Origin: Herbinix sp.
GTDB lineage: Bacteria; Bacillota; Clostridia; Lachnospirales; Lachnospiraceae
NCBI GenBank assembly: GCA_029240245.1
Contig: JARBTJ010000021.1
Location: forward strand, 1 to 53,006
DNA: 53,006 bases
Direction: 5' to 3'
Shown here: one piece after another, positions 6,505 through 53,006 of the stretch
How the letters are laid out: each line of letters starts with the position of its first letter
Position numbering within the stretch: the first letter of the stretch is position 1
Translations under genes and position numbers: made by a program
Notes under the pieces: generated by a model
Database searches by the model: none
What the model was told of the DNA's origin: nothing
What the model saw: only the letters and a program-made list of their open reading frames with translations

Positions 6505-8100
6505 TCATCTTGACACAATATACATAATCGGATAATATTTTCCGTCTTCAAGTTCAATGACTCCCCGTTCAGAAGCCTCATAAATATATGCCATTGGATG
6601 ATAAAAAAGAGGTTCAGAATAAACAAAGCTTGGTATGTGGGTGATATGCTTTGGTATTTTCATAATGTTATCCTTTACCGTATCAACCGCTTTCTGAAGT
6701 AAAAGACTGCAATACTTATGGGATGCAGTTCCTTCAATTTCAAAGAAATGTTTTTCATCCTCTACTGTTATATATGGTACAGCTGCTGTTTTTCTACCAT
6801 CTTCTGACTTAAGGAAGCCATACTTTTCAAGGTCCGGAATAAGTTCCGCCTGGAAAGCATTCAATGTATTTGTTCTAACGGCATCAATGGCAAGTATTCT
6901 ATCTTTTTGGCTGAGACTGTATCTAAATTTCGCTTGGTTCGTCGGACCAATGGCTGTATTCCATTCACAGGCCTTTCCAATAGATTCACTTATTTCATCT
7001 ATTCCACAACGTCCACTGACAGCATATCTCGCATTTTCATCGTCAAACTTATAACCATTCGGATATTTTGACCCAATTGCAATCCACTTACCATAATTTG
7101 GTCTTTCAGGATAGTCTTCTATATCATGTTTCTTGCCTTCAACTGCCTCAGAAATACAACTCATATAATTCTGTCTGATGGATAAGATTGCCATAATATA
7201 TAGATAAGTATCGCTGCAAGCAGAAAATCCGGTGATTTCTTTATATTCGTTTACCATTTCTAGTATTATGGGATTTGCTGTATCAAAGGTTTCTTTTGCG
7301 TACTTTTTACTTATTTCAATGTTTTTAAAATCATTCTTAAGAGTTGTAATAACAAAGTCAGTAAATACTTTTTTTCCTTCGTATTTCATTAGTTGGTTTG
7401 CGACAAGATAATCTACACACTCTTCAATGAACACTGCCGGAACACCTAATGCTTGCGATATTTCATCTTTCGTTAAGGGTTTTTCGTAGGTCAAAATCAA
7501 TATGTTTTGATCTAATGAGCTACGGATGCACGAAAACGGTTCTCCATTTAATCCCGTTCTGCCGTTTATGCCAATTGTCAAAATATCCGGCAGATAACTG
7601 TTTTTTGCATAACTATCCATCTGTTCCACTCCTTTTTTTACTTTCTTGCGTCCTGCATCCAAGCGACTAAGAACAGTACCTTTTGGAAGTCCCAGTTCCT
7701 TTGCTATCTGTTCAACTGATTGTTCCTGCATATAATAACGCACCATAACATCCCGATATATATGTGACAGAAAAGCCAATTCCCTTCTTATAGCTACTGC
7801 TTCCTCTGTCTTATATAATTCTTCGAAGGCATCGGTATCGTCGGTTAGTTCCATGCACATATCATCATAACTGGCTACGTTCATTTTATATTTCTTACGC
7901 AAGAAAAGGAAATACTGGTTATTCAGTATAGAAGCGAGATATGCCTTTGGGTTTGTAATTATAGCACCTTTTTTTAAAGCAACCATGGCACAGAGATAGG
8001 TCTCTTGAAGTAAATCCTGGGCTTCCTCTATGTTATGGGTTTTAATTATTGCTGTTTTTAGTAGCATATCGGCATACTGTAATAAATCTTCCGCTTTCAT
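6505..8100 (-). CDS. ECF-type RNA polymerase sigma factor with long C-terminal extension
   Basis: The first 155 or so of 531 residues are a sigma-70 family protein: region 2 in residues 20-75 (AQDLLQETYLCAM, then NPKAYLASILNNQYFLFLRK) and region 4 around residues 105-155, with the helix-turn-helix SVEQIAKELGLPKGTVLSRL. An ordinary ECF factor would end there. Here about 375 more residues follow, without obvious membrane segments, including KPLTKDEISQALGVPAVFIE, which looks like a second winged-helix element. C-terminally extended ECF proteins are known from Firmicutes, with the extension thought to control activity; the signal here is unknown. The start ATG at 8100 follows AAGGAAG. No anti-sigma gene is adjacent. 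Confidence 0.8.
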   Translation of the reverse strand: MKAEDLLQYADMLLKTAIIKTHNIEEAQDLLQETYLCAMVALKKGAIITNPKAYLASILNNQYFLFLRKKYKMNVASYDDMCMELTDDTDAFEELYKTEEAVAIRRELAFLSHIYRDVMVRYYMQEQSVEQIAKELGLPKGTVLSRLDAGRKKVKKGVEQMDSYAKNSYLPDILTIGINGRTGLNGEPFSCIRSSLDQNILILTYEKPLTKDEISQALGVPAVFIEECVDYLVANQLMKYEGKKVFTDFVITTLKNDFKNIEISKKYAKETFDTANPIILEMVNEYKEITGFSACSDTYLYIMAILSIRQNYMSCISEAVEGKKHDIEDYPERPNYGKWIAIGSKYPNGYKFDDENARYAVSGRCGIDEISESIGKACEWNTAIGPTNQAKFRYSLSQKDRILAIDAVRTNTLNAFQAELIPDLEKYGFLKSEDGRKTAAVPYITVEDEKHFFEIEGTASHKYCSLLLQKAVDTVKDNIMKIPKHITHIPSFVYSEPLFYHPMAYIYEASERGVIELEDGKYYPIMYIVSR

Positions 8101-8359: not shown

Positions 8360-8992
8360 TTATTGATCGGAGTTGTTATCGTGTTTATTTCTATTTGATA
8401 ATCCATAAGTTTGCTCTTCCCCCCAGCGCTTATATCCCGGTGCTAAAATTCCGAATTTATCCAGTATTTTTCCCACGATCTGTAGATTCATCTCCTGTAA
8501 GGTTTGCGGCTTCTGATAATAGGTTAGCATGGTAGGCATAATATAGGCTCCCGCTTCAGAAAGCGTTAGCATATTTCGAAGATGAATTGTGCTTAGGGGA
8601 TTTTCTCTAACCGCAATCACAAGCTTCCGTCGTTCCTTTAACGTAACATCCGCAGCCCTTAGTAATAGATTATCCGAATAACCGCAAGCCATACCCGCAG
8701 CCGTCTTCATACTGCAGGGGATGATCACCATTCCTTCGGTCGAAAAGGTTCCGCTTGCTACTTTGTCACCAATACTCCTAATATCATATATTTGATCAGC
8801 CAGATTTTTCACCTGTTCGGGGGTATAATCCGTCTCATGTGTGATTGTCAGCTCTGCTCCTTCTGACAGGATCAAATGGGTCTCCCATTCCGGCTGTTCT
8901 TTCATAATATTCAAAAGCTCGATTCCAAGAATAGCGCCACTTGCTCCGCTCATCCCAACGATTAGTCGCCTCTTACCTGATTGTTTTTCCAT
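8360..8992 (-). CDS. ubiX: UbiX-family flavin prenyltransferase
   Basis: UbiX enzymes attach a dimethylallyl group to FMN to make prenyl-FMN, the cofactor of UbiD decarboxylases. The 210-residue protein shows the FMN-binding start VGMSGASGAILGIELL (residues 12-27), the central PCSMKTAAGMACGYSDNLL segment and the conserved RKLVIAVRENPLSTIHLRNM stretch. The start ATG at 8992 follows AAAGGATC. It is the last gene of a minus-strand operon that also encodes a UbiD (12687), a UbiA (11828) and an ABC importer, which fits its role of supplying cofactor to that UbiD. The final 30 or so residues (GYKRWGEEQTYG onward) are a tail beyond the core fold. Confidence 0.93.
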   Translation of the reverse strand: MEKQSGKRRLIVGMSGASGAILGIELLNIMKEQPEWETHLILSEGAELTITHETDYTPEQVKNLADQIYDIRSIGDKVASGTFSTEGMVIIPCSMKTAAGMACGYSDNLLLRAADVTLKERRKLVIAVRENPLSTIHLRNMLTLSEAGAYIMPTMLTYYQKPQTLQEMNLQIVGKILDKFGILAPGYKRWGEEQTYGLSNRNKHDNNSDQ

Positions 8993-9035
8993 ACCGGTTG
9001 ATCCTTTCTTCGGTTATGCATCTTTATGTCAATAG

Positions 9036-9791
9036 TTACGAGATTATATTTTTCCATTTGCATAATTTATATGAAATATAATCGATAGAAACAAACAAGA
9101 AAAATCCGATCACCGAGATAACTATGATTCCGATATACATTTCGATATAATTAATTCTTGACCAGGCATCCAGTATATAATAGCCCATACCGTATTTTGT
9201 CCCGTAGCCCTCTACAAAAAACAGGATGGAGACTGCTGCCCCAAGGGATACCCTTACACTGGTGAGTAGCTGAGGTAATATGGCAGGCAGTGTTACATGC
9301 CGGATGATCTGCCCCTTATTAGCACCGGTGCTTTGTATCACCTGGTACAGTCTCGGATCTATGTTTATTACACTATCTCGTACTGAAATGATAACTTGAA
9401 ACACAATGACCAAAAACATAATGACTACCTTTGATCCATCACGCATACCCCATATTAGCATGGCAACCGGTAAAAGGGCTGTCTTTGGTATCGGGTAGCT
9501 AAAGTAAATCAACGGATAAAGAATGGTATTCGCTTTCTTCGAATATGCCATTAGAATACCAATCGGAATGCCAATGATTAGGGAAAATGCCAGGCCCAGC
9601 CCGATACGTCTTAAACTGTACCATATGTGTACCGCAATATGATCGGATAGGACTGAAGCAAAGCTTTGATATACCCGAATCGGATTCGGAATCACAGCCA
9701 TATCAGTCATAAGAAAGGCCAAATACCATATCAGGTTTATGGATAGAAAGCCCAGCAAAAACATCGTGCAACGTCTATATAGCTTAAGCAT
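9036..9791 (-). CDS. ABC transporter permease, nitrate/sulfonate/taurine type
   Basis: A 251-residue protein with six predicted membrane segments and the EAA-type loop containing QSTGANKGQIIRHVTLPAIL near residue 150, typical of SsuC/TauC/ThiX permeases. It overlaps the upstream ATPase gene by 8 bp, so the two are translationally coupled, and the operon continues to ubiX 43 bp downstream. The substrate cannot be read from the permease. The genomic linkage to UbiD, UbiA and UbiX suggests an aromatic acid or related precursor rather than a sulfonate; that is inference. Confidence 0.9.
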   Translation of the reverse strand: MLKLYRRCTMFLLGFLSINLIWYLAFLMTDMAVIPNPIRVYQSFASVLSDHIAVHIWYSLRRIGLGLAFSLIIGIPIGILMAYSKKANTILYPLIYFSYPIPKTALLPVAMLIWGMRDGSKVVIMFLVIVFQVIISVRDSVINIDPRLYQVIQSTGANKGQIIRHVTLPAILPQLLTSVRVSLGAAVSILFFVEGYGTKYGMGYYILDAWSRINYIEMYIGIIVISVIGFFLFVSIDYISYKLCKWKNIIS

Positions 9792-10560
9792 TGGCTTCCA
9801 CCCTTTCCTCCTGCTTTAACTGTTCCCGTAACAGCTTCTTGGTCACCAGATAAGTTACGTCCTCCGGGTATTGTTGACCAAAATAAGGATTTTGCATTTG
9901 ATATTTTACCGCTCCCATATGCTCACCCATGACCAGGATATTATTCCCAAGATAAAGGGCTTCGTCGATACTATGGGTCACCAGTATGGTAGTAGGTTTT
10001 ATCTGATTCCAGACCTTTAAAAACAATCCGCTTGCCTCTTCTCTCGTAATTGCATCCAATGCCGAAAATGGTTCATCCATTAAGAGTACATCCGGATTTA
10101 AGATAAAGGCTCTGGCGATCGCTGCTCTCTGTACCTGACCTCCGCTTAATTCATTCGGGTATTTATCCAGGAAATCCGTTATATCCAGAGCCTCGTAAAT
10201 CTTTCGTATATCCTCTTTACGCTTCCCATCCATCCGATCCCTGCGGATTTTAAGCGGTAACAGGCAGTTTTCCTTCACCGTCTTCCAGGGGAGTAGACCG
10301 CAATTTTGCGGTATCAGGCCTATTTTGTGCTGCATGGGATTTAATTTCTGCCTATCATTATCTCTGACATAATCGATCCTACCCTTATCGAGTGTAAGCG
10401 TTCCGGCAAGGGCGTTGATTAGGGTTGATTTACCGCAGCCGGAATGGCCTAAGATAACCATAGCCTCTCCTCCCTGTAACTGCAGGGAGAGGTTTTCAAT
10501 TACCGGCATATCTTCCTTTTTCGATTTATAATGGATAGAAATATTTTCAATTATAAGCAT
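9784..10560 (-). CDS. ABC transporter ATPase, nitrate/sulfonate/taurine type
   Basis: All nucleotide-binding motifs are present: Walker A GHSGCGKST (residues 38-46), Q-loop, signature LSGGQVQRAAIARAF, Walker B VLLMDEPFSALD and the H-loop ILVTHSIDEAL. About 258 residues matches SsuB/TauB-like ATPases. I prefer the ATG at 10560, placed five bases after GGGGAA; an in-frame ATG at 10572 overlaps that ribosome site. The binding-protein gene of the same system lies upstream at 10832, separated by a 271-bp gap filled largely by a copy of the dispersed palindromic repeat. Confidence 0.92.
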   Translation of the reverse strand: MLIIENISIHYKSKKEDMPVIENLSLQLQGGEAMVILGHSGCGKSTLINALAGTLTLDKGRIDYVRDNDRQKLNPMQHKIGLIPQNCGLLPWKTVKENCLLPLKIRRDRMDGKRKEDIRKIYEALDITDFLDKYPNELSGGQVQRAAIARAFILNPDVLLMDEPFSALDAITREEASGLFLKVWNQIKPTTILVTHSIDEALYLGNNILVMGEHMGAVKYQMQNPYFGQQYPEDVTYLVTKKLLREQLKQEERVEANA

Positions 10561-10590
10561 ACAGTTCCCCATCTTTTATATTACTATCAA

Positions 10591-10728
10591 TTGCGAAACT
10601 CAACATCTGTATTAATTGCGCACACAACATATACTACTCCGAAGCGGAAGTTAAGCCCGTAGGAAACGCTTAAGCGGAGGATTAATATGTGTTGTGTGTG
10701 CAATAGCAAAAACTATATTGTTTCGCAA
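10591..10728. repeat. dispersed palindromic repeat, complete copy A
   Basis: This 138-bp element is bounded by perfect 9-bp inverted ends, TTGCGAAAC at 10591 and GTTTCGCAA at 10728. Inside are long arms (TTGCGCACACAACATATACT against AATATGTGTTGTGTGTGCAA) enclosing a loop region with GCGGAAGTTAAGCCCGTAGG. Further copies are at 46280-46415 and 52915 to the window end. It interrupts the spacing between the binding-protein and ATPase genes of one operon, so it is probably transcribed and would fold into a large hairpin. No coding capacity was seen. Confidence 0.85.
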
Positions 10729-10831
10729 ATGCCTTATATTACCAAAACTACATGAATGGTTCGGATGCATATTCTCTTTAATTTAAGCGATATGGACTCC
10801 GAAGTCTTTCAAATGCATTTTATATATCCAA

Positions 10832-11782
10832 CTATTTATATACATCATAGGTCATCTGATCATAGGTTAGGGTTGCCTCACATAAACCTCTCTCGCTTGC
10901 CCAAGCTACCGCTGCTGCCACTTCTTCTTTGGTGGGAAGCACACTGGTTCTAAATTCCTTTACTTCGATTTTGCCTATCATCTCTTCCGGATAACCCACT
11001 GCTTTTATAACAGTTTCTTCATATTTTCTGATATCGGTTTTATTCATATAATCCACCGCTTCGTTGTAAGCCTGGTAAAGGTTATGAATTGCCTCTTGTT
11101 TTTCGTCAAGGGCTGTCTTTGTAAATGCAGACACTGCCGGATATAAGCCAAATTCATTTGCACTGCCCAGAGCTATCGCACCATCATTTAGCGCGATGGT
11201 TGCAAAGGGTTCCGGCATTAAGCCAAGATCAATCTTATCATTACGTAAAAGTTCCAGTCTGTCAGGAATTCTCGGTACAATTTCCTTTGTCACATCATCA
11301 CTTTGCATACTATTATTCGTTAAAATGTTATCCAGGGTGTAATCAATCAAGGTGTTCTCAGATATCGCAATGCTTCTTCCCTTAATTTCACTGATATCCT
11401 TGATGCCTGTGTTCTTACCGGCCATTAGAATATAGTCACCATCGGTAATACCCGTAATTTTCACATCGAAGTCAGCATTCTGATACATGCATACACCAAT
11501 AAAATCGGTCAATACTCCATCCAGTTCTCCCGCCTGCAGTGCGGCGTCTCTATCCTTAGCGGAAGTAAATACCTCCAGCTTTAGTTCAAAATTATATTTT
11601 TCAGAAAGTCCATTCTCATTGATTAATACATAAGGAATTACATCAGAGGAGGACATCATACCGATACGAATCACCGGTTTTTCTTTGGTATCGTTTAAAT
11701 CTGTTTTTTTATCTTGTAATTTACAGCCTGCAAATAAAATTACTAAAACTAATATAATTGATAAAAATTTAACTTTTTTCAT
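10832..11782 (-). CDS. substrate-binding lipoprotein, NMT1/SsuA-like
   Basis: A 316-residue periplasmic-binding-type protein with signal peptide MKKVKFLSIILVLVILF and lipobox LFAGC, so it is anchored outside the membrane. The body resembles NMT1/THI5 and SsuA-like proteins: VIRIGMMSSSDVIPYVLINE at the start of the fold, then LPEPFATIAL-like LGLMPEPFATIAL near residue 190. The start ATG at 11782 follows AAGGAG. It belongs with the ATPase at 9784 and permease at 9036, and lies directly after ubiA. Its ligand is unknown. Possibilities include an aromatic acid or a quinone precursor, given the neighbours. A thiamine or sulfonate role is less likely because no related biosynthetic gene or riboswitch is seen. 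Confidence 0.88.
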   Translation of the reverse strand: MKKVKFLSIILVLVILFAGCKLQDKKTDLNDTKEKPVIRIGMMSSSDVIPYVLINENGLSEKYNFELKLEVFTSAKDRDAALQAGELDGVLTDFIGVCMYQNADFDVKITGITDGDYILMAGKNTGIKDISEIKGRSIAISENTLIDYTLDNILTNNSMQSDDVTKEIVPRIPDRLELLRNDKIDLGLMPEPFATIALNDGAIALGSANEFGLYPAVSAFTKTALDEKQEAIHNLYQAYNEAVDYMNKTDIRKYEETVIKAVGYPEEMIGKIEVKEFRTSVLPTKEEVAAAVAWASERGLCEATLTYDQMTYDVYK

Positions 11783-11827
11783 TATCGTACTCCTTCATGT
11801 TAGATTAACTTGATCATTGTTACGTGA

Positions 11828-12700
11828 TTATAAAATGAACGCATCCAATCCACCGCAGATCAACAAAACTATACTAACCAACTGGTTGATACTGTAGGAG
11901 GCTATGTTCACGTTGGTAAGATTCGTCGGAGATACCAAGCGGTATTCCGCGATAAATAATCCGGTGATCATAACTAAACCAACATAATAGATAACTCCTA
12001 ATTCCGGTGCCAGGATGCCGATGATTACCAGACATACTAAGGTAATAATGTGAAAAAACATGGCTATATATAAGGCATTTTTAACTCCGAATTTTGACGG
12101 AATGGAATAAAGTCCATTTGCCTTATCAAAAGCATAATCCTGGGAGCCGTAGATGATATCAAAGCCGGCAACCCATAAGGTATTTGCTGCTCCCATAAAA
12201 AGTGGAGTTAGTGATAACTCGCCGGTTACCGCAAGCCAGGCACCCACCGGTGCGCAGGCACACGTTACACCCAAAACCAAGTGGCAAAGGTACGTAAAGC
12301 GTTTACAGTAAGAATAAATGATTAACAGAAACAATGCCACCGGTGACAGGAGTAAACAAATCAGGTTGATTTGATAGGCTCCGAACAGCATCACCAGAAA
12401 ACAGATGGCGGTAAATAGGATTACCTCCTTCTTTTTCATCTCACCTTTTGGTAACTGACGTCCTGCGGTTCTCGGATTACGTGCATCAATCTCCGCATCG
12501 ATGACCCGGTTAATGGCATTGGCGCCGGTTCTCGCTCCCATGAAACAAACAAGAATCCAGATGAGTAAGGAGATCTTCGGCAGGCCATTTGCGGCGAGTA
12601 ACATGGAAATGAGTGCGAAGCTAAAGGAAAATATGGTATGAGAAAACATAACAAGCTTTCCATACTCATGTAATTTCCTAATAATTTTATTCAAAACCAT
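11828..12700 (-). CDS. ubiA: UbiA-family aromatic prenyltransferase
   Basis: An integral membrane prenyltransferase of 290 residues with about eight to nine membrane segments. Both Asp-rich motifs that hold Mg-diphosphate are present: NRVIDAEIDARNPRTAGR (residues 64-81) and DIIYGSQDYAFD (residues 181-192). The NPRTAGRxLP continuation is typical of 4-hydroxybenzoate polyprenyltransferases and of the MqnP group, rather than of heme O synthases. It overlaps the 3' end of ubiD by 14 bp, so the two are coupled. The enzyme would move a polyprenyl chain from its diphosphate onto an aromatic acid. The window holds no methyltransferase or other ring-modifying gene to complete a quinone. Confidence 0.93.
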   Translation of the reverse strand: MVLNKIIRKLHEYGKLVMFSHTIFSFSFALISMLLAANGLPKISLLIWILVCFMGARTGANAINRVIDAEIDARNPRTAGRQLPKGEMKKKEVILFTAICFLVMLFGAYQINLICLLLSPVALFLLIIYSYCKRFTYLCHLVLGVTCACAPVGAWLAVTGELSLTPLFMGAANTLWVAGFDIIYGSQDYAFDKANGLYSIPSKFGVKNALYIAMFFHIITLVCLVIIGILAPELGVIYYVGLVMITGLFIAEYRLVSPTNLTNVNIASYSINQLVSIVLLICGGLDAFIL

Positions 12701-14555
12701 ATTCGCTCCACCTTTCGTCCACCTGCTGCTTCATCCTCTGTGTCATGGTAATGTCATTCGGCCAATCCCTTGTAAGTCCTTCTTCCCTCCTCTTTTTCGT
12801 GGCATCAATACCAATCCTCGCACCTTCGATTACCAAATCTCTTCTTGCATCGATATTATTAAATACCTTCCACATAACCGTGGATAAGTCCTTAGGATCA
12901 ACGTCATCATCCACAACGATTACATATTTATCAGCGTTATGCTTCATATATGCTTTTAAGGTATCCTTACCGTACCAGGGCTTGTCCTTGTGAACCGTTA
13001 GAATATGATAGGAAATGCTTACCTTGGGATTTTCGTTAACAATACTCTTTGTTAGATCTCTTGCATTGTCGTTATCCTTATCCTTTATGTTATCATTAGT
13101 GTAATTGATTGAATTGTTATTTGCATTAGCATTTACATGATGATTAGCTTCGCATTTTGCAGGGGCAGTATTATAATCCCCGATATCTGTAAAATGTCTG
13201 TGAGAACCCAATTTATCCGTAGCATCCACACCCAGTCTGCAGCCAAACAACGCCTGATTTGAGGAATGATCCAGTGCATCTAACGGTCCGTCAGAAAATA
13301 CCAGATCCTCCGCACCGTATACATTATTTAGCACAGCCTCAAGTACCGCAGATAAATTCTGCACATCCACCGAAGCATCCACCACTACGATTAATTTTGT
13401 GTACATCATCTGTCCCATACCCCAGATACTGTACATCGTTTTCTGAGCACAGCCCGGAAACTTTGAATTGATCGATACTATGGCACAATTATGGAATACC
13501 CCTTCCAGTGGTAGATTCAAATCCACCAGCTCCGGGATAATCATTTTAAGCATGGGCAGAAAAATACGTTCTGTTGCTTTCGCCATATAGCAATCCTCCA
13601 TGGGTGGTTTTCCAACCACGGTTGCAGGATAAATTGCATTTTTCTTATGAGTGATACATGTCACATGAAATCTGGGATAATAATCGGCTAAGGAATAGTA
13701 ACCGGTATGATCTCCAAAGGGTCCTTCCAGAACCAATTCCTCTTGGGGGTCCACATAACCCTCCAGAACTATTTCTGCATTTTCAGGAACATAAATATCG
13801 TTGGTAATACATTTCACAAGCCTTACTCTCTTCTTGCGAAGCCAGCCCGCCAGCATCATCTCATCTAACATCTTAGGAAGCGGTGCTGTAGATGCATATG
13901 TTATGGAAGGATCGCAGCCAAGTGCTACGGATACCGGCATCTTTTGATTGCTTTCCTTATAACCCTTATAAATTTCCGAGCCGTCCTTATGCTTGTGCCA
14001 GTGCATTCCGGTACTGGTCTTATCAAGGATCTGAAGTCGGTACATCCCAACATTCTGTTGTTTTGTTTTTATATCCTTTGTAAATACCAGAGGCAGCGTC
14101 ACAAACCTCCCTGCATCCTCGGGCCAGCATTTTAACACCGGAAGCGTACCCAAATCAACGTCTCGTTCGATAACCTCCTGGCATCTGCCCCTTCTTCTGC
14201 TTTTGTTCGGAAATACATGAAGAAGTCTGAAAAAACGAGGTATGCTCTTAATTAATTTTCTTACCGAAAGGTAATTGCCAAATTCGAGATAGTTGGAAAT
14301 CTCATCTCCGAGCTCATCTAAATTACTTACCCCAAGCCCCAGGCTCATTCTCTCGAAGCTTCCCATCGCATTCATTAAGACCGGATAGTTTGATCCGGTT
14401 ACATTCTCAAACAGCAAGGCCGGCCCCTCCGCCTTCGATATCCGGTCCGTTATTTCCGTAATCTCAAGCTCAGAAGAAACCTCTGCATTAATCCGTTTAA
14501 GTTCTCCGATTTTGTCTAACTCATTGATAAATGTGTGTAAATCCTGATACGACAT
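12687..14555 (-). CDS. ubiD: UbiD-family prenyl-FMN-dependent decarboxylase
   Basis: UbiD enzymes reversibly decarboxylate aromatic or unsaturated acids using prenyl-FMN. This 622-residue protein has the N-terminal LHTFINELDKIGELKRI, the metal and cofactor region GPFGDHTGYYSLADYYPRFH, the conserved MEDCYMAKATERIFLP with its catalytic Glu, and the C-terminal ATKKRREEGLTRDWP. An Asn/Asp-rich low-complexity insert lies around 13050-13165, making the protein longer than the roughly 590 residues usual for the family. I choose the ATG at 14555, eight bases after AAAGGA; the upstream ATG at 14564 overlaps that site. It heads the operon and has a good promoter at 14626-14654. The closest paralogs by sequence feel are menaquinone-type decarboxylases. 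Confidence 0.93.
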   Translation of the reverse strand: MSYQDLHTFINELDKIGELKRINAEVSSELEITEITDRISKAEGPALLFENVTGSNYPVLMNAMGSFERMSLGLGVSNLDELGDEISNYLEFGNYLSVRKLIKSIPRFFRLLHVFPNKSRRRGRCQEVIERDVDLGTLPVLKCWPEDAGRFVTLPLVFTKDIKTKQQNVGMYRLQILDKTSTGMHWHKHKDGSEIYKGYKESNQKMPVSVALGCDPSITYASTAPLPKMLDEMMLAGWLRKKRVRLVKCITNDIYVPENAEIVLEGYVDPQEELVLEGPFGDHTGYYSLADYYPRFHVTCITHKKNAIYPATVVGKPPMEDCYMAKATERIFLPMLKMIIPELVDLNLPLEGVFHNCAIVSINSKFPGCAQKTMYSIWGMGQMMYTKLIVVVDASVDVQNLSAVLEAVLNNVYGAEDLVFSDGPLDALDHSSNQALFGCRLGVDATDKLGSHRHFTDIGDYNTAPAKCEANHHVNANANNNSINYTNDNIKDKDNDNARDLTKSIVNENPKVSISYHILTVHKDKPWYGKDTLKAYMKHNADKYVIVVDDDVDPKDLSTVMWKVFNNIDARRDLVIEGARIGIDATKKRREEGLTRDWPNDITMTQRMKQQVDERWSEYGFE

Positions 14556-14625
14556 GAAGCACATCCTTTAATTAAAGTGTCTTTCCTATGTACATTATTC
14601 ATAATTAACCTACTGCACATTGCTT

Positions 14626-14654
14626 ATTCTAAAGCAATCAGGGGGATTATTCAA
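14626..14654 (-). promoter_or_regulatory. promoter of the ubiD-ubiA-ABC-ubiX operon
   Basis: On the minus strand TTGAAT (14654-14649) and TAGAAT (14631-14626) are 17 bp apart, 71 bp upstream of the chosen ubiD start. Both hexamers match consensus in 5 or nearly 5 of 6 positions. Confidence 0.65.
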
Positions 14655-14854: not shown

Positions 14855-15028
14855 TTATTTTGTTTCCGTCTTCTTGCTCTCCAGACTATGGCAAGATGAA
14901 GAAGAGGAGCAGTGAGCACAACCGCCTCCGCATCCCATGCTTTGTCCGGAACGCCTTTTCTTTCTGGCATAAACCATAATAAAGCTCAGACAAGCCAGTA
15001 TTAAAATTACAACAATAGCATCCATCAT
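14855..15028 (-). CDS. FeoB-associated Cys-rich membrane protein
   Basis: A 57-residue protein. One N-terminal membrane helix (MMDAIVVILILACLSFIMVY) is followed by a basic stop-transfer ARKKRR and a Cys-rich tail containing CGGGCAHCSSSSSC. This is the architecture of the small FeoB-associated Cys-rich membrane proteins found at the end of feo operons in Firmicutes, thought to assist ferrous iron transport. The start ATG at 15028 follows GAGGAG; an ATG one codon later is equally possible. It is the last gene of the feo operon, 22 bp after the Fur-like gene. Confidence 0.88.
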   Translation of the reverse strand: MMDAIVVILILACLSFIMVYARKKRRSGQSMGCGGGCAHCSSSSSCHSLESKKTETK

Positions 15029-15050
15029 ATTTGTGACTCCTCTCCATCGT

Positions 15051-15482
15051 TTATTTTTTCATAACAATTGCTTCTATTTCATGATCCTTAATTCCGCAAA
15101 CAGTATTCAAACCAGCCTTTATAACATTGATCCATTTCTGGGCCGGGAGATTAACGGTTCCACCGTTTTTTAAGATAATGATACTCTCCCCATCCATCCC
15201 ATCATAAAACACCTTATAATGAAATTGACGGTTCAAAGCTCCTATATCCTCCAATGCTTTTATCATACGATACACTGTTGCAATACCAACCGTAGGGTCC
15301 TTCTGGACAACCTGCCAATGGATCTCTTTACAGCTGGTGTACTCATAACCTAATATAATATCGATAATAAGGTTTCTTTGCTTTGTAATTCTGCAACCCT
15401 GTTTTTTCAGCTCCGCCAGGATCAAATCCTTCTGTTTTACCGGCTTTTCAAAATAATAATCATCCATATTAGGTATTGTCAA
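15051..15482 (-). CDS. Fur-family-like regulator with reduced metal-binding domain
   Basis: The first 85 or so of 143 residues form the Fur winged-helix domain: LKKQGCRITKQRNLIIDIIL, then PTVGIATVYRMIKALEDIG, in which ATVYR is the family signature. The C-terminal half is short and lacks the usual HHHDH cluster and the CxxC pairs that bind metal in Fur, Zur and PerR. It ends in a novel region with NLPAQKWINVIKAGLN. The start is TTG at 15482, eight bases after AGGAGA. Lying inside the feo operon, it may be a local regulator with altered or no metal sensing; the two Fur boxes at the operon promoter are likely targets of this protein or of a standard Fur. Confidence 0.82.
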   Translation of the reverse strand: MTIPNMDDYYFEKPVKQKDLILAELKKQGCRITKQRNLIIDIILGYEYTSCKEIHWQVVQKDPTVGIATVYRMIKALEDIGALNRQFHYKVFYDGMDGESIIILKNGGTVNLPAQKWINVIKAGLNTVCGIKDHEIEAIVMKK

Positions 15483-15544
15483 AATACATTTCTCCTATAA
15501 ATCACTCTAATGTAACCCTTAATATACACTAACTTAGTTCAATG

Positions 15545-17599
15545 TTAGAATAACAATCGGCCAATTTGATTAATCAGTAGTGCTACGATATAGGCTACCA
15601 GCATCTGGAATCCTACTGCCCGCAAGGTCCATTTCCATGAGCCCATTTCTCTTCTGATCGCTCCTACGGCTGCAAAGCATGGCATACATAAAAGGTTAAA
15701 GGCCATATAGGACCAGGCACTGACACCGGTAAATACAGAAGCCAGATGGGGTAACGCCTGTTCACCGGCCATATAGGCTTCGATGGTTGTTTCATCGCTC
15801 ACACCGGCAAACAATTGTCCAAAGGTTGCTACAATATTTTCTTTTGCAATCCATCCTGTTACAACAGCAACAGAGGCACGCCAATCTGCAAATCCCAGCG
15901 GTGCAAAGATTACTTTTATACCATTTCCGATATAAGCTAAGAAGCTGTCTTCCATATCACTCATACCACTAAAGTTAAAGTTTGATAATAACCAAATCAA
16001 CACGGTGGAAGCAAAAATTATCGTACCGGCTTTTATCGCAAAGCCTTTTACCTTCTCCCAAGCATGGATTAAAACACTCTTCATGGTTGGAATTCGATAT
16101 TTTGGAAGCTCCATAATGAAGTTTGAGGTATCGCCTTTGAAGAAAAATTTATTTAATATAAAGGAGCTTATTATCGCTATTACAATACCCAGCATATAAA
16201 TGGTAAATACAATCAAGGTCTGATTACGATCAGCAAATAAGGTAGCTGCAAACATTGCGTAGATCGGTAGCTTCGCACCACAGGACATAAAGGGTGTTAT
16301 CATCATGGTGATTTTTCTGTCCTTATCACTTTCTAAGGTACGGGAAGCCATGATGGCAGGAACCGAGCAACCGAAGCCCATCAGCATCGGGATGAAGGAA
16401 CGTCCCGACAAACCAAAGCGGCGGAAAATACGATCCATAACGAAGGCAACTCTTGCCATGTAACCACTGTCTTCCAGAAATGATAATAGCAAAAACAACA
16501 CAAGTACTAGAGGGAGAAAACCTGCTACCGCTCCAATGCCCTCCATAATACCGTCAATTACTAAGGAAAAGACCCAATCGGAGGCTCCGCCCTTGGTAAG
16601 TATACTCTCGAAGACACCGGTCAACATGCTCCAGCCTTCTTCCACCAAGCCGGCCAGCCAGATACCTGGACTGGGAAGCCCCTGAATAAACAGGAAATTC
16701 TCACTGAAGGTAAAGGCAAACAGCAGATACATCATTACAGCAAATATTGGCAGGGCTAAGAATCGGTTTGTAAGAATTTTATCCAGCTTATCCGAATTTG
16801 TTTCTACATGCCCCTTCTTCGATTTCTGAACCGCAACCTTTACAGCTTTCCCGATAAACTGATATCTTAAGTCGGCTATCTTTGCCTCAGTATCACCATT
16901 CGCACGGCCTTCCGCACTTTTTATAATCGCTTCAACTTTTATCCTTTGCTCTTCGCTTAGGGAAGCCGTCACAATTTCATCGCATTCCACCAGTTTGATT
17001 GCCTTCCATTCCTTCTCCTCAGCTGAGTCTTCTGCCAAAACAGCTGCTGTCTCATGGATGGCGGATATGATGTTCTCATCAAAAATATCCAATGTCTTAG
17101 CAGGCTTCTTTTCCTTAGCTGCCCGTATAGCTGCATCCATCAGCTCTTGAATACCTTTGCCGGCTCTTGCTACGATTGGTATTACCGGTACTCCAAACAT
17201 GTCGGAAAGTTTCGTGCAATCGATCTTATCCCCTCTGGCTTCTACTTCATCCATCATATTTAAGGCGATGACCATCGGAATGTTAGTTTCTGCAATTTGC
17301 AACGTTAAGTACAGATTACGTTCTATGCTGGTAGCATCCACAATATTGATGACTGCGTCCGGTTTATCCTTAACGATATAATCCCTCGCAATAACTTCTT
17401 CCGCTGAATAGGGTGACAGCGAATATGTACCGGGTAAGTCCATAATATTAACCTCTTTGTTCTTCTTATAGACACCCTCTTTTTTATCGACCGTTACTCC
17501 CGGCCAATTACCAACATGCTGTTTGGAACCTGTTAATTCATTAAAAAGTGTTGTTTTCCCGCAGTTTGGATTGCCTGCTAGTGCAATCGTATAAGACAT
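15545..17599 (-). CDS. feoB: ferrous iron transporter FeoB
   Basis: FeoB is the main GTP-dependent Fe2+ importer of anaerobes. The 684-residue protein has the N-terminal G domain with G1 GNPNCGKT (9-16), G2 GNWPGVT, G3 DLPG (54-57) and G4 NMMD, a helical guanine-dissociation-inhibitor region to about residue 270, and a membrane domain of eight to eleven helices with paired gate motifs (GYMARVAFVMDRIFRRFGL followed by MGFGCSVPAIMASRTLES). The start ATG at 17599 follows GGAGG. Two FeoA genes lie directly upstream and a Cys-rich partner at the end of the operon. Confidence 0.97.
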   Translation of the reverse strand: MSYTIALAGNPNCGKTTLFNELTGSKQHVGNWPGVTVDKKEGVYKKNKEVNIMDLPGTYSLSPYSAEEVIARDYIVKDKPDAVINIVDATSIERNLYLTLQIAETNIPMVIALNMMDEVEARGDKIDCTKLSDMFGVPVIPIVARAGKGIQELMDAAIRAAKEKKPAKTLDIFDENIISAIHETAAVLAEDSAEEKEWKAIKLVECDEIVTASLSEEQRIKVEAIIKSAEGRANGDTEAKIADLRYQFIGKAVKVAVQKSKKGHVETNSDKLDKILTNRFLALPIFAVMMYLLFAFTFSENFLFIQGLPSPGIWLAGLVEEGWSMLTGVFESILTKGGASDWVFSLVIDGIMEGIGAVAGFLPLVLVLFLLLSFLEDSGYMARVAFVMDRIFRRFGLSGRSFIPMLMGFGCSVPAIMASRTLESDKDRKITMMITPFMSCGAKLPIYAMFAATLFADRNQTLIVFTIYMLGIVIAIISSFILNKFFFKGDTSNFIMELPKYRIPTMKSVLIHAWEKVKGFAIKAGTIIFASTVLIWLLSNFNFSGMSDMEDSFLAYIGNGIKVIFAPLGFADWRASVAVVTGWIAKENIVATFGQLFAGVSDETTIEAYMAGEQALPHLASVFTGVSAWSYMAFNLLCMPCFAAVGAIRREMGSWKWTLRAVGFQMLVAYIVALLINQIGRLLF

Positions 17600-46279: not shown

Positions 46280-46415
46280 TTGCGAAACCCATATTCTGTA
46301 TTAATTGAGCATACAACATATACTGCTTCGGAGCGGAAGTTAAGCCCGTAGGAAGCGTGGAGCGGAGGAATAGTATGTGTTGTGTGTACAATAGCAAAAC
46401 GATATTGCTTCGCAA
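46280..46415. repeat. dispersed palindromic repeat, complete copy B
   Basis: A 136-bp copy with ends TTGCGAAAC (46280) and GCTTCGCAA (46415, one mismatch to the perfect inverse). The arms ACAACATATACT and AGTATGTGTTGT flank the conserved GCGGAAGTTAAGCCCGTAGG, identical to copy A. It fills the gap between the Cro/CI-type gene and the TPR gene; nothing else is seen there beyond a short GCAACTG/CAGTTGC palindrome at 46519-46534. Confidence 0.88.
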
Positions 46416-52914: not shown

Positions 52915-53006
52915 TTGCGAAACTCATATTCTGTATTAATTGCGCACACAACATATACTACTCCGGAGCGGAAGTTAAGCCCGTAGGAAGCGTTGGAGCG
53001 GAGGAA
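52915..53006. repeat. dispersed palindromic repeat, copy C cut by the window end
   Basis: The left end TTGCGAAAC (52915) and the left arm GCGCACACAACATATACTAC match copies A and B, and the conserved GCGGAAGTTAAGCCCGTAGG is present. The window ends before the right arm. Confidence 0.88.

Follow-up and report, generated by a model that had tools for sequence, protein, structure and literature searches.

A UbiD-UbiA-importer-UbiX operon of Herbinix and other Bacillota as a candidate salvage route for the menaquinone head group

Introduction

A 53,006-nucleotide contig of Herbinix sp. (JARBTJ010000021.1, assembly GCA_029240245.1; referred to as the window in the rest of the paper) contains six minus-strand open reading frames (ORFs) at 8360-14564 that code, from 5′ to 3′, for a UbiD-type decarboxylase, a UbiA-family prenyltransferase, a lipoprotein, an ATP-binding cassette (ABC) ATPase, a permease and a UbiX-type flavin prenyltransferase. 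What would a dedicated importer bring to enzymes of the kind that finish quinones? From sequence comparisons across the Bacillota, we favor the view that this cassette is a salvage operon for the menaquinone head group, probably 1,4-dihydroxy-6-naphthoate, which would be finished to demethylmenaquinone; we hold this to be rather probable.

Exchange of soluble quinone precursors has been proposed, with the transport genes yet to be annotated, in passages of a study that also named MqnP, MqnL and MqnM and predicted them as late steps of the futalosine pathway (Ravcheev and Thiele 2016, PMC4746308). Precursor cross-feeding was shown physiologically (PMC10746273, in the part that treats it), and transporters for menaquinone or 1,4-dihydroxy-2-naphthoate had, in the words of a 2017 text, 'not been described to date' (PMC5738691). 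According to excerpts of a 2026 survey, many Bacillota are without a quinone pathway (PMC13386864). The first-pass annotation of the window did not know the arrangement as a described system; likewise, no description of such a quinone-precursor importer was found in the openly licensed PMC literature, mostly judged from listings.

Results

The cassette codes for MqnL- and MqnP-like enzymes

The six minus-strand genes that the first-pass annotation had placed at 8360-14654 are all present as ORFs, and their family assignments hold. The UbiD protein scored 635 bits against TIGR03701, the 'menaquinone biosynthesis decarboxylase' model (cut-off 495.9), and is thus of the MqnL type. Its residues 3-452 align with E. 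coli UbiD (2idb, E = 3.4e-103), and the blocks YRxQ, EIVLEGY and EGPxGDHTGYY, which carry catalytic residues of UbiD, are retained. An Asn/Asp-rich insert of ~50 residues is absent in two orthologs (L031 and L032). A C-terminal extension that resembles a second UbiD_C piece is common to the cassette clade (565-625 residues where the protein is whole); the UbiD proteins of the other importer genomes examined (see below) have 477-552 residues. UbiX matches 1sbz (E = 8.3e-53) and is expected to make the prenylated flavin mononucleotide (prenyl-FMN) needed by UbiD, so that a three-domain UbiD and a UbiX together make up a prenyl-FMN decarboxylase system.

The UbiA protein exceeded the cut-off of TIGR01475 (302 bits, cut-off 180.8) and stayed below those of the MqnP models, with 293 bits for MqnP_DT (cut-off 430), 248 for SCO4491 and 218 for Cj_Hp. 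The proteobacterial UbiA model gave 126 bits, lower than all three MqnP models.

The gene set recurs in several families

Of 200 sampled genomes of the same family, 93 contain some match to the lipoprotein, but a strong one occurs in only three: the window's own and two more (74 and 68% identity). An MqnL-type UbiD over cut-off occurred in the same three genomes, and any UbiD match in 25. A scan of 84,980 species genomes returned 13 named loci whose binding proteins are 64-81% identical, including two records evidently identical to the two genomes of the family sample. The carriers are Herbinix-labelled metagenome-assembled genomes (MAGs), Mobilisporobacter (Lachnospiraceae), Konateibacter, 'Candidatus Galacturonibacter', Caproiciproducens (Acutalibacteraceae), 'Ruminococcaceae UBA2656', Amazonia massiliensis, Sedimentibacter (Tissierellia), Alkalibacter (Eubacteriaceae) and two Clostridiales MAGs. 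Recurrence in other genera rules out a chance neighbourhood, and the loci in other families rule out confinement to Lachnospiraceae.

As far as the contigs reach, the gene set is the same in the 13 named loci and the window. Binding protein, ATPase and permease genes stand together in 13 of these 14 loci, L054 ending after the binding protein. The dedicated importer among quinone-type enzymes, to which the first-pass annotation had drawn attention, is an arrangement kept in relatives, in which the place of ubiX varies. This gene lies at the 3′ end in four loci (window, L045, L052, L055) and between the UbiA and binding-protein genes in seven (L046, L047, L048, L050, L051, L056, L057), making it adjacent in 11 of 14; it is not adjacent in L049 and L053 and would lie beyond the contig in L054. 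The two positions carry different UbiX types, judged by best matches to different query copies, which suggests that UbiX may have been replaced within a retained unit.

Early quinone genes were not found in the cassette genomes

The window belongs to a genome (G000, of which it is contig C122) of 3.78 Mb in 147 contigs that is 77% complete, and in which PF02621 (MqnA/MqnD) had no match. Three of the 14 cassette genomes showed a weak match to this model; two of these exceed the 26-bit cut-off (33.9 and 27.8 bits), and the third stays below it. Each is a lipoprotein-like ORF of ~350 residues, in two cases with an ABC permease ORF alongside, and by inspection none of the 14 genomes has a true MqnA or MqnD. 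MenD (TIGR00173) did not pass its 244.2-bit cut-off in any of the 14 (best 73 bits), and the sub-cut-off matches present in all of them were taken as related thiamine-diphosphate enzymes. The low Pfam cut-off of PF01209 (UbiE-type) was passed in all 14, the best match reaching 66 bits with 101 of 233 positions covered, and the longest one (7-214) 43 bits. A true UbiE scores far higher with this model, and the matches were read, by score and coverage, as probable general methyltransferases, none a UbiE. The earlier remark that early ring genes and a UbiE-type methyltransferase are absent thus extends from the window to 14 genomes for PF02621, MenD and strong PF01209 matches, MqnC, MqnE, MqnB and the other Men genes being outside the search.

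A UbiA-family gene of MenA-like sequence is found outside the cassette in all 14 genomes, in 11 of them inside the locus resembling those for extracellular electron transfer (EET) described below and elsewhere in three. The complete quinone pathway elsewhere, with its own UbiA and UbiD, that would have spoken against salvage was not seen in the early markers searched for, but a second prenyltransferase does exist. A third UbiA-family gene occurs in one genome (L044:606-15989, G099), clustered with radical-SAM-like ORFs (by eye) and a 1177-residue ORF.

Importers accompany UbiD mostly where MqnA and MqnD are missing

MqnL-type UbiD proteins over cut-off were found in 106 of 398 genomes of a phylum sample. 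A census of 80 genomes was made up of 73 of the 105 others over the TIGR03701 cut-off, a set thinned by eye, chiefly of repeated genera, before its MqnA/MqnD status was known, and of seven sub-cut-off UbiD genomes. Up to 19 kb around UbiD (less at contig ends) was fetched per genome, and the ORFs were searched with hidden Markov models (HMMs) of the cassette proteins. Counting strong PF02621 matches (~90 bits or more, read by hand), 36 of the 80 genomes are without MqnA/MqnD, 30 have one copy and 14 have two; G318 (44 bits in a 317-residue frame) and G322 (20.7 bits, under cut-off) were classed among the 36, and an automatic tally put 45 of 80 over the cut-off. MqnL without MqnA/MqnD is accordingly no peculiarity of this cassette. 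The textbook futalosine pathway requires both MqnA and MqnD, yet 30 of the genomes have a single strong copy.

An importer was found beside UbiD/UbiA in 18 of the 36 genomes without MqnA/MqnD, three of the 30 with one copy and none of the 14 with two (Fisher p = 1.9e-5, all 80). Leaving out the seven sub-cut-off genomes gave 18/36 versus 3/37 (p = 8e-5), and counting by family code gave 13/20 versus 2/22 (p = 2.6e-4). The binding-protein gene is on the same strand and within 2.5 kb of UbiD except in G516 (6.2 kb), and both ATPase and permease were recognised in 19 of the 21 loci. The importer HMM was partly trained on neighbourhoods L183-L202, all of the class without MqnA/MqnD; however, the 80 neighbourhoods gave no binding-protein match at E 1e-5 other than in the 21 loci, where the lowest score was 358 bits. 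Among the 18 importer-less genomes, two are on contigs shorter than 5 kb; in six, all of one family code, the fetched sequence lacks UbiA.

These 18 bear on the idea that the ring is made in-house, by an unrecognised replacement of MqnA/MqnD or a third pathway, the importer supplying for example an earlier intermediate. With half of the genomes lacking PF02621 also lacking a nearby importer, another ring source may exist in Bacillota, and MqnC and MqnE were outside the search; yet the enrichment of the importer where MqnA/MqnD is missing is directly explained by import, and we regard in-house synthesis as unlikely.

In the six genomes of family code f38 (L186, L187, L204, L206, L209, L212), an MqnL-type UbiD stands beside a prenyl diphosphate synthase gene, joined by UbiX in five, with no UbiA or importer near UbiD and no MqnA/MqnD (the 44-bit match of G318 being discounted). 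In one of the six (L148, G280) an HdrB-like ORF (by eye) is found nearby.

The importer appears to be inherited with UbiA and UbiD

A tree of 81 UbiA rows was computed by a quick method with Shimodaira-Hasegawa-like approximate likelihood ratio test (SH-aLRT) support and no bootstrap. Twelve cassette UbiAs form one clade (99), joined to eight UbiAs of importer genomes without MqnA/MqnD (96). The enclosing set of 28 rows (97) comprises 13 importer genomes without MqnA/MqnD, the 12 cassette rows and three genomes with neither MqnA/MqnD nor importer, and the rows outside it include all nine UbiAs of genomes with two PF02621 copies. By this phylogeny, the importer is inherited jointly with UbiA and UbiD as what appears to be one unit. 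Importers occur on other UbiA branches too, with eight changes in all, so they were gained or lost more than once. When E. coli UbiA was added, it and two MenA rows split from the other 79 with a support of 85, the E. coli row being a long branch.

This placement matters for the question of whether another aromatic acid, such as 4-hydroxybenzoate, is imported and its prenylated product serves as an electron carrier, signal or waste. The UbiA and UbiD families do include 4-hydroxybenzoate enzymes, and the cassette UbiA scored 278 bits against PRK12888 (4-hydroxybenzoate octaprenyltransferase, cut-off 364), near the score with MqnP_DT. We nonetheless find such a substrate improbable, since the proteobacterial UbiA model scored so low, UbiD passes the menaquinone model, UbiA groups with those of MqnA/MqnD genomes with E. 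coli UbiA outside, and the operon has no ring hydroxylase or methyltransferase. Nor was any gene in the cassette neighbourhoods seen to point to detoxification or signalling, the alternative offered by the first-pass annotation. Its principal proposal of uptake of an aromatic acid followed by prenylation and decarboxylation is supported and narrowed by the TIGR03701 match, the UbiA grouping, the joint inheritance and the occurrence of the importer mostly where MqnA/MqnD is missing.

The binding proteins form a group of their own

Lipoprotein, permease and ATPase genes found together make a binding-protein-dependent ABC importer; the permease and ATPase, like UbiX, are unremarkable representatives of their families. 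The lipoprotein has a lipobox-like FAGC ending in Cys20, which is retained in 14 of 14 loci. Its best NCBIfam model is SsuA_fam, at 83.9 bits against a cut-off of 163.5, and the best NCBIfam matches of the permease, SaoP and TauC, are both under their cut-offs. An AlphaFold model of the lipoprotein (mean pLDDT 84) retrieved SsuA, TauA, PqqT and Thi5 among the top Foldseek matches; the similar scores of these four, of which PqqT binds the quinone PQQ (pyrroloquinoline quinone), mean that the fold does not single out a ligand.

Residues R78, D79, D93, P173, R175 and W294 are invariant in 35 of 35 importer binding proteins, whose other identical positions include F72, G115, S141 and P190, and 30 other binding proteins mostly differ at the six (with a gap at W294 in some). 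In the AlphaFold model R78, D79, D93, P173 and R175 lie within or just before helices 75-83, 94-102 and 172-180, the starts of which presumably face the cleft in this fold. The two invariant arginines would suit an acidic ligand. With the cassette HMM, importer binding proteins scored at least 358 bits and the 30 others at most 95, except L004 at 237. In a tree made by a quick method without bootstrap, for which a long-branch warning was raised, the 35 importer proteins and L004 form one group (98) apart from the 29 other binding proteins.

Could the importer be a transporter of sulfonates, thiamine precursors or the like that shares the operon by chance? In favor of this are SsuA_fam as the best NCBIfam model and the leading structural matches, which include SsuA, TauA and Thi5 and belong to proteins of the same fold and importer type. 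Against this, SsuA_fam scored far under its cut-off, the association is repeated in 21 of 80 neighbourhoods, and the cassette proteins differ from SsuA/TauA/PqqT/Thi5-like binders in forming their own group with invariant residues and in having quinone-type operon partners; we consider a chance association very unlikely.

A kinship of the binding protein with MqnA/MqnD was rejected: it does not match PF02621, and when its profile was compared with that of a PF02621 protein, a weak test with a single sequence, the probability was 0.5%. Two plasmid-borne records contain relatives of 21% identity. In G071 (L033:8353-10963) a 237-bit binding protein lies beside a permease, with no UbiD- or UbiA-like ORF noticed in 17 kb. 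Alkalibacter mobilis carries a second related importer (L265:2378-5794; binding protein 246 bits, ATPase 306, permease 305), divergent from, and 124 nt away from, a MenA-like prenyltransferase gene. It is possibly an importer for 1,4-dihydroxy-2-naphthoate. If, as in this one case, members of the importer family can occur beside either kind of naphthoate prenyltransferase, their common element would be the prenyl acceptor.

Cassette genomes carry an EET-like locus

EET-type Ndh2 is encoded in all 14 cassette genomes (E <=2.5e-101 in each), with a best-piece identity of at least 64% in twelve and 42-44% in two. In the family sample Ndh2 was found at E 1e-60 in eight of 200 genomes, among them all three cassette genomes; by hand calculation such an overlap has a probability of 56/1,313,400 (~4e-5), or ~1e-3 when the window's own genome is excluded. 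Most of the loci contain genes for Ndh2, a prenyl diphosphate synthase, a MenA-like UbiA, a lipoprotein and ApbE, and some also EetA (NusG_II) and EetB (PF07456). These genes, EetA/EetB in some genomes only, are shared with the Listeria-type flavin-based EET locus (PMC9973259, in part). The locus of the window's genome (contig C72) has the first five, an Ndh2-like gene included, and differs from the Listeria type in standing apart from the cassette, in that EetA and EetB were not seen beside it, and in its lipoprotein, which has no Pfam match (one such lipoprotein tested). A simple pattern detected no flavinylation motif in 12 lipoproteins of these loci, and for these two reasons we term the locus EET-like. 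In three genomes the cassette directly follows it: UBA2656, Amazonia massiliensis and Caproiciproducens faecalis, where apbE and ubiD are 28 nt apart in the last-named. An Ndh2-centred EET-like chain is a likely user of the cassette quinone. EET or flavinylation loci are treated in PMC9973259, PMC8238504 and PMC7074142; in the available parts of the latter two, UbiD has no match by name.

The two prenyltransferases of these genomes raise the question of which naphthoate is imported. When MenA prenylates 1,4-dihydroxy-2-naphthoate, the carboxylate is lost and UbiD is unnecessary. In 1,4-dihydroxy-6-naphthoate, the product of the futalosine pathway, the carboxylate sits on the other ring and is retained, and a UbiD/UbiX step is required. 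A UbiA-UbiD-UbiX set with an importer and no MqnA/MqnD is therefore best read as uptake, prenylation and decarboxylation of 1,4-dihydroxy-6-naphthoate. That the importer instead takes Men-type 1,4-dihydroxy-2-naphthoate for the MenA-like enzyme of the EET-like locus, leaving UbiA and UbiD to a separate job, appears quite doubtful, because the importer shares operon and inheritance with UbiD and UbiX, for which a decarboxylative MenA has no need. In its favor are the MenA-like gene of the cassette genomes, the related importer beside such a gene in Alkalibacter and the external supply that feeds EET in Lactiplantibacillus plantarum (relevant passages of PMC10746273).

Operon layout and flanking genes

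The genes of the window's operon are listed in Table 1. The intergenic gaps in the UbiD to UbiX order are -14, 45, 259, -8 and 43 nt, which confirms that ubiD and ubiA overlap by 14 nt and the ATPase and permease genes by 8 nt, as had been reported. The single promoter that had also been assumed found no support, as promoter-like matches on both strands numbered 30 against 24.5 in shuffled sequences (sd 5.1), which is not above expectation. No Rfam riboswitch was detected in the window at gathering thresholds.

Table 1. Genes and spacer of the operon in the window
Feature	Position	Strand	Details
ubiD / mqnL-like prenyl-FMN decarboxylase	12687..14564	-	625 aa; TIGR03701, UbiD_N/UbiD/UbiD_C
ubiA / mqnP-like aromatic prenyltransferase	11828..12700	-	290 aa; PF01040, TIGR01475
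Importer substrate-binding lipoprotein	10832..11782	-	316 aa; NMT1_2, Lipoprotein_9, NMT1
Spacer with dispersed inverted-repeat element (probable insertion)	10573..10831	.	259 nt
ABC importer ATPase	9784..10572	-	262 aa; PF00005; position conserved in relatives
ABC importer permease	9036..9791	-	251 aa; PF00528
ubiX-type flavin prenyltransferase	8360..8992	-	210 aa; NF004685, TIGR00421 over cut-off

The spacer between the lipoprotein and ATPase genes, which measures -1 to 72 nt in 12 relatives, contains a 26-nt inverted repeat with arms 85% complementary and has a fold z of -3.5. Its arms recur in the window at 420-440, 46305-46325, 46371-46391 and 52940-52960, the arm-like matches numbering six against 0.01 expected. 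A dispersed inverted-repeat element was probably inserted into the operon here.

Upstream of ubiD, on the same strand at 14855-17599, are feoB, a Fur-like gene (TTG start) and a gene for a small Cys-rich protein associated with FeoB, which ends 290 nt short of ubiD; a tie between these iron uptake genes and the EET-like chain is only a thought. On the other side, at 6505-8100, a 531-residue ORF resembles extracytoplasmic function (ECF) sigma factors in its N-terminal part, up to about residue 160, and has no Pfam match over the long C-terminal remainder.

Discussion

The enzyme families, the joint inheritance, the absence of the early-pathway markers searched for and the Ndh2 locus can be read from the sequences, and they lead us to propose a direction of transport, a ligand, a product and a use. 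Outside the cell, the lipoprotein would bind a soluble dihydroxynaphthoic acid. The most likely one is 1,4-dihydroxy-6-naphthoate given off by neighbouring organisms with a futalosine pathway, and the permease and ATPase would carry this head group inward. UbiA, of the MqnP type, would attach a polyprenyl chain, for which the prenyl diphosphate synthase of the EET-like locus could make the donor; UbiD, of the MqnL type, would remove the ring carboxylate with prenyl-FMN made by UbiX. Because no UbiE-type methyltransferase was found, the product would be demethylmenaquinone, and this may be used by the electron-transfer chain around Ndh2, whose genes lie elsewhere in the genome.

Several observations weigh against this proposal. 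The MenA-like UbiA present outside the cassette in all 14 genomes means that demethylmenaquinone could form without this operon; the window's genome is incomplete, and MqnC, MqnE and MqnB lay outside our search. The closest counterparts of the binding protein, by model and by fold, are sulfonate and thiamine-type binders. The MqnP-specific models stay under their curated cut-offs for the cassette UbiA, as they do for the UbiAs of genomes with MqnA/MqnD, and the sole 4-hydroxybenzoate UbiA in the tree is the long-branched one of E. coli. In the census, half of the 36 genomes without MqnA/MqnD have no importer in the fetched neighbourhood and three one-copy genomes have one, and an independent-pairs test was not significant, though its direction agrees (6 pairs, mean 2.7 same versus 0.1 opposite, median p = 0.25).

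The same three types of enzyme, prenyltransferase, UbiD-type decarboxylase and UbiX, are predicted to act late in the futalosine (Mqn) pathway (PMC4746308, in the passages on these steps), from which the cassette genomes differ in that neither MqnA/MqnD nor a strong UbiE was found and in the dedicated ABC importer of the operon. Lactiplantibacillus plantarum likewise draws on an external quinone precursor for an Ndh2 electron-transfer chain but with DmkA/DmkB, and the available part of that report names no importer and leaves the route of quinone incorporation still to be identified (PMC10746273).

We rate the cassette as an operon for the salvage of a cofactor precursor, in this case that of quinones; its importer family is undescribed in the searchable literature. 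There is an even chance, in our judgment, that it represents the first importer family for the menaquinone head group and marks widespread quinone 'finishers' among the Bacillota, which lost ring synthesis or never had it, take in a dihydroxynaphthoate that other microbes have made and complete it to demethylmenaquinone, used in several lineages for flavin-based EET. If this is true, some genomes scored as free of a quinone pathway are those of quinone users, and the importer could explain part of the Bacillota without such a pathway in the 2026 survey (PMC13386864, as excerpted). With a named, testable binding protein, quinone cross-feeding could be traced in genomes, and the importer would link fermentative anaerobes to electron transfer that their neighbours feed.

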